From NCBI GenBank assembly GCA_034928305.1, contig JAYFOZ010000005.1, positions 62,001 to 126,000 of the forward strand: DNA of 64,000 nt, given 5' to 3'. The DNA is from Methanomassiliicoccaceae archaeon (GTDB taxonomy: Archaea; Thermoplasmatota; Thermoplasmata; Methanomassiliicoccales; Methanomethylophilaceae). Positions within the stretch are counted from its first letter, which is position 1; the number at the start of each line of letters is the position of its first letter. Under the pieces are notes generated by a model. It was not told the origin of the DNA. It did not search any database and saw nothing but the letters and a program-made list of their open reading frames with translations. The position numbers and the translations under genes were made by a program. Below, one piece after another: positions 16,658 through 43,613 of this stretch.

Positions 16658-17161
16658 TCAGGCAGATACGAGCTTCTTCAGTTTCTGGGGTTCGTCCATG
16701 TTTTCCTTCACCCAGTCACGTATCCTGTAGGCCATTCTTAGGTAATCTTCGGCAAGTTCCTTGTCGTCTGTTGCGGTGAAGTCTTCGGTCGATCCCATGT
16801 CGACCAGGATCTGCTTTCCTTTCCAGACGGTCTTATGTGCGTATTCCTCAAAGACCTGGGCCTGTGTGTATATGACGAAATCGTAACCATGGTCGGCCGG
16901 AAGGTATTCGCTGTCGAATCCTTTGGACCTCTGGTGCCTGATATCCTCGGACTCTGTGTACATGGTGATGATCATGTCGCAGTCCATCACATCCGGCTCG
17001 GGGCCCGCGCTGAACGCCTGATACATACCGGGATACTGTTTGTTGGTATAGTACTCGGCCAGCTGAGACTGGAGATCGTTCTTCCGGTCCACAAAAAGGA
17101 CCGAGACCTTGTTCCTGTCCCTCTCCGGCCTGCTCTCTTTGGCCATCTTTCTCTCTGACAT
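16658..17161 (-). CDS. Low-molecular-weight phosphatase/arsenate-reductase-like protein lacking the catalytic P-loop residues
   Basis: 167 residues. Residues 19-36 align to the family P-loop V-L-F-V-C-x-G-N-x-C-R-S-x-x-A-E, but read VSVLFVDRKNDLQSQLAE: Asp25 replaces the nucleophilic Cys and Gln31 replaces the Arg. Downstream, AFSAGPEPD and the tail ILVDMGSTEDF...YRIRDWVKE match the fold, with the general-acid region altered to DMG. Only one Cys exists in the protein. It is probably a catalytically inactive binding or regulatory paralogue. TATA-like GTATATGT at 17186-17193 makes the ATG leaderless; the gene diverges from a C/D sRNA gene. Confidence 0.7.
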   Translation of the reverse strand: MSERKMAKESRPERDRNKVSVLFVDRKNDLQSQLAEYYTNKQYPGMYQAFSAGPEPDVMDCDMIITMYTESEDIRHQRSKGFDSEYLPADHGYDFVIYTQAQVFEEYAHKTVWKGKQILVDMGSTEDFTATDDKELAEDYLRMAYRIRDWVKENMDEPQKLKKLVSA

Positions 17162-17207
17162 GCAATCCGGGTTATTACTTTCGGGACATATACCTTTTGG
17201 GAAGTAT

Positions 17208-17215
17208 GTTTAAAC
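17208..17215 (+). promoter_or_regulatory. TATA-like box of the C/D sRNA
   Basis: GTTTAAAC centred 25 bp upstream of the sRNA terminal stem at 17236, an ideal archaeal promoter distance. Confidence 0.6.
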
Positions 17216-17235
17216 CTTCTGGAGGATAGAGGGTC

Positions 17236-17293
17236 GCCACAGTGATGAACGTTTTCGAGCTGTTTTTGATGATAGACGGGCGAGCTGAGTGGC
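17236..17293 (+). ncRNA. Box C/D guide sRNA, predicted target 16S rRNA C1402
   Basis: 58-nt RNA with the full archaeal C/D layout: terminal stem GCCAC (17236-17240) with GTGGC (17289-17293), box C GTGATGA (17242-17248), 11-nt guide, box D' CTGT (17260-17263), box C' TTGATGA (17266-17272), 12-nt guide TAGACGGGCGAG (17273-17284), box D CTGA (17285-17288). The D guide holds GACGGGCG, complementary to the universal 16S segment CGCCCGTC (E. coli 1400-1407). By the N-plus-five rule the methylated base is C1402, which is 2'-O-methylated in bacteria by RsmI and in eukaryotes under snoRNA guidance. The D' target was not identified. It has its own TATA box. Confidence 0.85.
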
Positions 17294-17336
17294 ACCTTCT
17301 CAATAAGTGTAAATAAGCCCCTGCAGATGGAAGTTT

Positions 17337-18629
17337 ATGTGTGCAGTACTCCAGGTCGCGCTCGACATCATGCAGGTCGGACGCAGCGTCCCCATCGCCA
17401 AAGAGGCGATCGAGGGAGGTGCTGATTGGATTGAAGCGGGAACGCCGCTGATAAAAAGCGGTGGAGCGGAAGCGATACGCGTCCTCAGGAGAGAGTTTCC
17501 CGACAGGAAGATAGTCGCCGACACGAAAACGATGGACGTGGGCGCGTTCGAGGTGGAGATCGCAGCCAAGGCCGGTGCAGACATAATAACGGTGCTGGGT
17601 CTTGCGGACGACTCGACCATTTCCGAGGCCGTTTCTGCCGGAAGGAAATACGGCGCAGAGATAATGGTCGACATGATCAACGTAGTCGACAAATTGAAAA
17701 GGTCCAAAGAGGTCGCCAAGCTGGGCGTCGCATACATATGCCTTCACATGGGCATAGATGCACAGATGAAGGGAGAGGCTCCGCCCAAGGACCTCCTCCG
17801 GGAAATAGTCGATGCGACCGCCGTGCCCATCGCCGTCGCCGGTGGGATAACTGCTGAGAACGCAGGGGAATACGTGGATGCGGGCGCCTCCATAATCATT
17901 GTCGGCGGAGGCATCCTGAAGGCTGCCGACATCCGTGCTGCCGCCGCAGCCATAAAGTCTTCGATGGCGGGCTCCAAGGTAAACACCGAGCTTGCAAAAA
18001 AATACACGGAGGACAATCTGTTCGAGGCGTTCTCGAGGGTTTCCACCTGCAATATTTCTGACGCTCATCACAAAAAAGGAGTGATACTGGGGCTCACTCC
18101 CTACATAAAGGACGGGAGCCGCATGGTCGGCCGCGCACTTACGGTTCAGACGACGAACGGCGACTGGGCGAAACCCGTGGAGGCTATCGACAGGGCGAAG
18201 CGGGGCGACATCATCGTCATAGACGTGGGCGGTGGCTGGATGGCCGTATGGGGAGAGCTTGCCGCCACCTCTGCAATGGTGGCCGGATGCGCGGGCGTCG
18301 TGATAGACGGTAGCATACGCGACATCGACGATATACGCAAAATGGAGTTCCCGGCCTTTGCCAGAATGGCCGTTCCGTGTGCCGGGGAGCCGAAAGGGTA
18401 CGGAGGGATCGGCATCGAGATAACCGTCGGCGGGCAGAGGGTCCGCACGGGAGACTGGATCATAGGGGACGAGAGCGGACTGATAGTCGTCCCAAAAGAA
18501 GAGGCCGTCGAGGTGGCCAACCGCGCGCTGGACGTGCACGAGCACGAGGACCGCACCCGTGAGGAGATCAGAAGAGGCTCGACCCTCTCCAAGGTGAACG
18601 AGATCTCCAAATGGGAGCCCGTAAAGTAA
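17337..18629 (+). CDS. Fused 3-hexulose-6-phosphate synthase / RraA-like protein
   Basis: 430 residues. Residues 1-~205 are an orotidine-decarboxylase-superfamily barrel of the hexulose phosphate synthase type (LQVALDIMQ, EAGTPLIKSGG, DTKTMDVG, VAGGI, IIVGGGI). It condenses ribulose 5-phosphate with formaldehyde, or runs in reverse to make pentoses. Residues ~220-430 are an RraA-like domain (STCNISDAHHKKG, GRALTVQT, GCAGVVIDGSIRDI, VVPKEEA), a fold of class II aldolases and of the bacterial RNase E inhibitor. Fusions of this kind are known in archaea lacking the oxidative pentose pathway. TATA-like TGTAAATAA near 17308-17316 places the start at the ATG. Confidence 0.9.
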   Translation: MCAVLQVALDIMQVGRSVPIAKEAIEGGADWIEAGTPLIKSGGAEAIRVLRREFPDRKIVADTKTMDVGAFEVEIAAKAGADIITVLGLADDSTISEAVSAGRKYGAEIMVDMINVVDKLKRSKEVAKLGVAYICLHMGIDAQMKGEAPPKDLLREIVDATAVPIAVAGGITAENAGEYVDAGASIIIVGGGILKAADIRAAAAAIKSSMAGSKVNTELAKKYTEDNLFEAFSRVSTCNISDAHHKKGVILGLTPYIKDGSRMVGRALTVQTTNGDWAKPVEAIDRAKRGDIIVIDVGGGWMAVWGELAATSAMVAGCAGVVIDGSIRDIDDIRKMEFPAFARMAVPCAGEPKGYGGIGIEITVGGQRVRTGDWIIGDESGLIVVPKEEAVEVANRALDVHEHEDRTREEIRRGSTLSKVNEISKWEPVK

Positions 18630-43220: not shown

Positions 43221-43613
43221 ATGATTTCCGTCAGGATATCCTGCCCCGTTAATCCGAGCGAGTCCGAGGAACTGGTGCTGGACGCTGTGATGAAGATATT
43301 TCCGGACGCCGCAATGGAAAGGACGTCCAAGGGATTCGAGGGCACCGCGCCCGGCATCGAACGCTTCGCAATGCTGGTCCGTCGGCAGAAGATATTGGAC
43401 GCCGCAAGAGCGGTGCTCATAAAAGGACTGAACGGCGACAGCACGTTGTTCCGTCTGAACAAGCAGGTGGCGACCGTCGGCAAAGTATCGTTTGCGACCA
43501 AAGGGGCAGTTCTGGGAACCATAGACGTGCGCATCGATGACGATGACGACATCGAGCTGTACATAGATGCGATGCTTCCCCGCACAATCGAAGGACAGGA
43601 GGTAAGATTATGA
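43221..43613 (+). CDS. UPF0201 family RNA-binding-like protein
   Basis: 130-residue conserved archaeal family with an RL5-like alpha/beta fold, proposed to bind RNA. The sequence pattern SVRISCPVNPSESEELV, RRQKILDAARAVLI and FRLNKQVATVGKVSF is characteristic. The stop overlaps the next gene by 4 bp (ATGA). Precise function unknown. Confidence 0.8.
   Translation: MISVRISCPVNPSESEELVLDAVMKIFPDAAMERTSKGFEGTAPGIERFAMLVRRQKILDAARAVLIKGLNGDSTLFRLNKQVATVGKVSFATKGAVLGTIDVRIDDDDDIELYIDAMLPRTIEGQEVRL

Follow-up and report, generated by a model that had tools for sequence, protein, structure and literature searches.

The 175 nt intergenic gap at positions 17162–17336 of the stretch of DNA analysed in this work (64,000 nucleotides from a Methanomassiliicoccaceae archaeon, hereafter the window) raises the question of whether it houses a gene for a small RNA and, if so, at which nucleotide that RNA is directed. 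The original prediction, made from the letters of the window, placed a box C/D sRNA in this gap and assigned to it the 2'-O-methylation of C1402 in 16S rRNA. Our analyses leave very little doubt that the segment has the make-up of an archaeal box C/D sRNA gene, and we estimate at roughly 0.9 the probability that its predicted product guides the methylation of 16S C1402.

The features of the locus are summarized in Table 1. The claim that all elements of such an RNA are in place holds for the terminal stem, the C, D', C', and D boxes and the two guides of 11 and 12 nt; the D' box is degenerate and represents the only departure from the consensus in the window's sRNA. A single A, read from the sequence, lies between the 5' strand of the stem and the C box, and UU (TT in the DNA) separates the D' box from the C' box. 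The full architecture is present at one place in the 64-kb window and at none in 200 simulated 64-kb windows (first-order Markov), and the boxes and the stem are conserved with covariation, both of which bear out the assignment to the box C/D class. In the covariation test, 99% of the terminal stem cells are paired in 82 homologues, and cells changed on both sides number 43 vs. 7.4 in shuffles, with register controls collapsing. The covariance model scores the sRNA at 73.3 bits (E 1.4e-17) in the window, this model containing the window's own sequence. A second match of the model at 43531–43576 (E 0.008) falls within an ORF that has many GAT/GAC codons and was rejected as a chance occurrence. 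The single-strand secondary structure of the sRNA (z -1.64) is uninformative, as it should be for a C/D RNA.

Table 1. Features of the sRNA locus and its surroundings (positions in the window).
Feature	Position	Strand	Characteristics
Box C/D sRNA gene	17236–17293	+	Mature RNA predicted at ~58 nt; gene supported by anatomy, BLAST bounds, covariance model and phylum spread
TATA box TTTAAA	17209–17214	+	Centre ~25 bp upstream of the predicted RNA 5' end
Terminal stem, 5' strand GCCAC	17236–17240	+	Paired with 17289–17293, perfect 5 bp
C box GUGAUGA (DNA GTGATGA)	17242–17248	+	RUGAUGA in 80/88 homologues
D' guide ACGUUUUCGAG (DNA ACGTTTTCGAG)	17249–17259	+	11 nt; length and T-run differ between relatives
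D' box CUGU (DNA CTGT)	17260–17263	+	Degenerate vs. CUGA; from sequence
C' box UUGAUGA (DNA TTGATGA)	17266–17272	+	TGATGA core kept in alignment
D guide UAGACGGGCGAG (DNA TAGACGGGCGAG)	17273–17284	+	12 nt; bases 3–10 from box D pair with 16S 1400–1407
D box CUGA (DNA CTGA)	17285–17288	+	CUGA in 83/88 homologues
Terminal stem, 3' strand GUGGC (DNA GTGGC)	17289–17293	+	Covariation
hps-rraA fusion (hexulose-6-phosphate synthase/RraA-like)	17337–18629	+	PF00215, PF03737; NCBIfam PRK07028, RuMP_HxlA; downstream neighbour, outside the RNA
arsC/low-molecular-weight-phosphatase-like gene	16658–17161	-	Weak arsC match; divergent neighbour, outside the RNA

Of 41 close relatives, 30 carry the sRNA according to BLAST searches, and many of the matches extend over almost exactly the RNA (query 37–94 of 137). 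The C and D boxes, whose loss in close relatives would have spoken against the original prediction, are kept in most of the homologues (counts in Table 1). A covariance model built from 53 homologues, which includes the guide and would therefore miss homologues with an altered guide, detects the sRNA in 279 of 392 Thermoplasmatota genomes and in 188 of the 222 that are of good quality (completeness of 90% or more and contamination of 5% or less). The sRNA is nearly always present as a single copy per genome; two matches each were found in G103, G125, G160, G179, and G219 (family f25), and in G144 and G185. The pair in G179 is near-identical, shares identical upstream sequence and lies near contig ends (L236, L237), and it is possibly an assembly artefact. 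When the relatives that had yielded no match were searched again with looser filters, only weak and unconvincing matches were obtained, the best of them with E 0.005 (G062), and the near-complete relative G033 has no homologue under these filters either. Several of the matchless relatives are fragmented assemblies, so that absence of the gene and a gap in the assembly are inseparable there.

An exact pattern, comprising the C' box, GACGGGCG and the D box, was searched in a collection of genomes from 84,980 species and occurs in 107 stretches; among the 80 matches listed, all but 3 are archaeal. The three bacterial matches among them (viz. Chitinophagales, Rhizobium, and Bacteroidetes) are not preceded by a correctly spaced C box and are considered chance occurrences. 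The D guide core recurs in a C/D sRNA of Diapherotrites archaeon LH_S9, a member of DPANN (L098, 6963–7029, minus strand; E 1.2e-5 in that genome), the terminal stem of which is unrelated to that of the window's sRNA. This likeness could be due to shared ancestry, transfer or convergence.

The sRNA gene would be free-standing and driven by its own TATA promoter. A TATA box 25 bp upstream had been predicted, and TTTAAA is indeed present at the right distance, in a promoter geometry that is conserved over 127 homologous upstream regions. Counted from the C box, the A/T fraction of these regions forms a sharp peak of 0.74–0.93 at -34 to -29, and there is another A/T peak at -16/-15. We interpret the two peaks as lying where an archaeal TATA box and a proximal promoter element would be expected for a predicted transcript that begins at the terminal stem. 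A scan of the locus for bacterial promoters and terminators found nothing, including no terminator-like site.

The gene hps-rraA follows the sRNA in 47 of the 96 distinct loci with enough sequence; a search for this RNA beside hps-rraA in related genomes had been suggested in the original prediction. At other loci the sRNA is present with no adjacent hps-rraA. On the upstream side, 93 distinct loci extend far enough to be assessed, and 60 of them encode a tsr3 homologue on the opposite strand (e.g. L008–L010, L300, L301), at a median distance of 612 bp from the sRNA and never in another orientation among the 93 loci. The assignment to tsr3 is based upon PF04034 together with PF04068 and on NCBIfam DUF367; a model of a 16S rRNA aminocarboxypropyltransferase is matched more weakly. 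Most Methanomassiliicoccales have an arsC-like gene between the sRNA and tsr3; in several other lineages there is no arsC-like match and tsr3 lies at 114–725 bp; and the window's genus has kept the arsC-like gene, with no tsr3 match in the adjacent sequence examined. Tsr3 contributes to the hypermodification of a P-site U that lies at the tip of helix 31 (PMC11698992) and is aligned with E. coli 966 (PMC7005279). The conserved neighbourhood points to a possible joint regulation of two P-site modifiers; alternatively, it may reflect mere gene order.

The D guide is complementary to the universal 16S sequence CGCCCGUC. The 16S rRNA of the window's own genome carries ACACACCGCCCGTCAAACC/ACACACCGCCCGUCAAACC, and guide bases 3–10 form 8 Watson-Crick pairs with C1400–C1407, guide positions 1, 2, and 11 being mismatched. 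Guide base 5 (G17280) is located opposite C1402 (C1342 of the genome's own 16S). The pairing in a single genome carries little weight, since 23% of random 12 nt guides are expected to have an 8 bp match to the genome's own rRNA that includes position 5, and the weight of the assignment lies on conservation. Each of the 82 distinct homologues, which were located by BLAST or by the covariance model, has at position 5 a G that faces C1402 and lies in an uninterrupted duplex of 7–10 bp. The claim that the N-plus-five rule lands on C1402 is upheld by this register, which is kept in 82/82. The spacing from position 5 to box D is likewise fixed in the homologues. Guide positions 4–7, 9, and 10 never change, position 8 holds either a C or a U, each of which pairs with G1405, and position 3 is a G in 75/82; variation is seen at positions 1, 11, and 12, beyond the core duplex. 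Of the 19 Thermoplasmatota genomes where the 16S target was read, 18 agree in its sequence. The 16S rRNA of G073 (L277) has a U at the position of C1404 (CGCCUGUC), and the guide keeps its G there, which gives a G-U pair. Guide position 2 (window 17283) is an A in 73 of the 82 homologues, yet it is unpaired with 16S C1399, and its near-invariance is not explained by a pure constraint from the target.

The length of the duplex also requires comment. Dennis 2015 set a minimum of 9 bp for target prediction, i.e. at least 9 consecutive Watson-Crick pairs (PMC4644070), and the 8 pairs in the window's genome fall below it; contiguous duplexes of 9–10 pairs, G-U pairs included, are present in 36/82 homologues. 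A duplex of 8 bp is acceptable because high methylation is reported for lengths of 8–10 bp (Yang 2016, as cited in PMC7089733).

Several other readings of this locus merit consideration. The RNA could be a true box C/D sRNA whose main target lies elsewhere, either at position 607 of the genome's own 23S rRNA or in another transcript. Positions 607–618 of the 23S pair with guide positions 2–12 over 11 pairs (three of them G-U), and the near-invariant position 2 that has no partner in 16S would be accommodated by a different target. However, the 23S site drifts over the phylum (ATTGTCCG, ATCGTTCG, GCTATCCG, GTCGTACG, and others) while the guide core is constant, and the pair at position 5 would be G-U; the 16S target, in contrast, is conserved in the phylum and its pairing survives every change seen in the guide. 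The 23S site was rejected as an alternative D target in view of its lack of conservation, and we consider a main target elsewhere very improbable. The assignment to C1402 is supported by the combination of these patterns, viz. changes in the guide core that keep the pairing, drift of the bases outside the duplex, and drift of the rival 23S site.

It is also conceivable that an sRNP bound to C1400–C1407 serves mainly as a chaperone for the folding of helix 44 and the P-site, with methylation being secondary or absent. A chaperone role in rRNA folding has been proposed for archaeal C/D sRNAs (PMC4644070), and the conserved trait, the pairing, would be equally demanded by chaperoning alone. This reading, which we regard as very improbable, does not agree so well with a Watson-Crick G-C pair at position 5 in 82/82 homologues and a fixed spacing to box D, as methylation requires, or with the Cm that is present at the equivalent base in Pyrococcus abyssi (PMC7005279). 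A chance resemblance is already refuted by its 0 occurrences in the 200 simulated windows. A regulatory element of hps-rraA (a leader or attenuator) would fit the position directly upstream of this gene and in the same orientation at 47/96 distinct loci, but the sRNA is retained where hps-rraA is not adjacent, there is no terminator-like site, and many alignments stop at the terminal stem. The probability of either form is negligible. Guidance of C1402 methylation by the D guide is thus the reading that we retain.

The original prediction named no target for the D' guide, and our searches agree with it. In the scoring of 126 D'-side regions against own 16S and 23S rRNA with shuffled controls, the best rRNA duplex of the window's D' guide scores no better than those of shuffled guides (p ~0.5; own 16S and 23S), and the guide is also at chance level against 30 tRNAs. 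The D' guides of the window's family are T-rich, variable in length and mostly end in CGAG, and they are at or near chance vs. rRNA. The D' box is CUGU in the window's genus and CUGA in most relatives outside it. The scores at chance level and the decayed D' box suggest that the D' guide in the window's family is probably "empty", its box having decayed to CUGU in the genus. The only D' guides that consistently stand out are those of sister families, which carry UAAACCCAGCU and form 11 Watson-Crick pairs with 23S AGCUGGGUUUA; these guides are found at loci L025, L026, L028, L095, and related ones, in Methanomassiliicoccales outside the window's family. The N-plus-five rule places their predicted target at 23S G2581 (E. 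coli numbering, by count), near the peptidyl transferase centre. The same guides also match 16S more weakly, immediately 3' to the C1402 site (10 pairs, one of them G-U). As judged from the sequences compared, it is the D half of this RNA that is conserved, the D' guide having been replaced several times.

In the RNPs of this class, L7Ae binds the C/D kink-turn and the C'/D' kink-loop and recruits Nop5 and fibrillarin. The genome encodes fibrillarin (E 5e-70), Nop5 (E 4.5e-55), and eL8/L7Ae (E 1.7e-45). We infer transcription of the sRNA, RNP assembly and methylation as follows. L7Ae would bind the two motifs of the transcribed RNA and bring in Nop5 and fibrillarin, and the D guide would pair with 16S 1400–1407, which lies at the base of helix 44. 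The 2'-OH of C1402, the target nucleotide paired with guide position 5 before box D, would then be methylated by fibrillarin to give Cm1402.

In bacteria, C1402 of 16S rRNA is converted to m4Cm1402 by RsmI (with RsmH), and in eukaryotes the equivalent nucleotide is modified by snoRNPs, the guides being snR70 for 18S Cm1639 and SNORD43 (U43) for Cm1703, which share with the window's sRNA the target nucleotide, the RNA class and the enzyme family. RsmI adds the same 2'-O-methyl group to the same nucleotide, but it is a protein-only enzyme and is absent from the window's genome by model search, the RsmI model finding nothing there and passing its cut-off in ten of the control genomes. At1gCDbox192 of Arabidopsis (18S Cm1645) likewise agrees in target nucleotide, RNA class and enzyme family (PMC11542601, Table 1). 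The eukaryotic snoRNAs (snR70, SNORD43, and At1gCDbox192) differ from the archaeal sRNA in genomic setting and RNA length, and no Rfam model of them has a match at the locus. A wider proposal would be that Cm1402 guidance is a core function, near-universal in Thermoplasmatota by means of one sRNA, that the divergent tsr3 forms with it a co-regulated module of P-site maturation, and that the eukaryotic Cm1639/Cm1703 guides are perhaps counterparts by descent; taken jointly, these claims are tentative and less likely than not.

The modification, from P. abyssi, and the RNA class are already known, whereas the literature searched appears to contain no description of the guide itself, of how deeply it is conserved or of its context. 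Cm1376 of P. abyssi 16S rRNA has been detected by cryo-EM and mass spectrometry (LC-HRMS) and is given there as corresponding to E. coli m4Cm1402, yeast Cm1639, and human Cm1703 (PMC7005279); the likeness is that of the same modification at an equivalent base, and the sections of that paper concerned with it name no guide. No archaeal guide for Cm1402 is named in the literature found, supplementary tables and the original Pyrococcus/Pyrobaculum sRNA lists being outside this search. A 2024 review does not list a methylation at the C1402-equivalent base for Haloarcula (PMC11542601), and a survey of seven species predicts few sites in helix 44, of which its main text names only the equivalents of 1408 and 1494 (PMC4644070). 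At the locus, no Rfam family reaches its gathering score; the nearest, RF01139 sR2 (27.9 bits vs. 42), differs in its D guide, GGAUGGCGG, which does not fit C1402 in the register of the window's sRNA. A guide that is phylum-wide and register-perfect represents a concrete, deletable gene with which the role of Cm1402 in Archaea, and whether it is RNA-guided, can be addressed. With the archaeal box C/D sRNAs (sR) of Pyrococcus and Sulfolobus, the window's sRNA shares the RUGAUGA and CUGA boxes, the C' and D' boxes, guides of 10–13 nt, the terminal stem, a length of ~58 nt, the N-plus-five rule and the presence of L7Ae, Nop5, and fibrillarin in the genome. The phylum-wide presence of its guide contrasts with the seven archaea covered in a 2021 review, in which no methylation site is common to all (PMC7994747).
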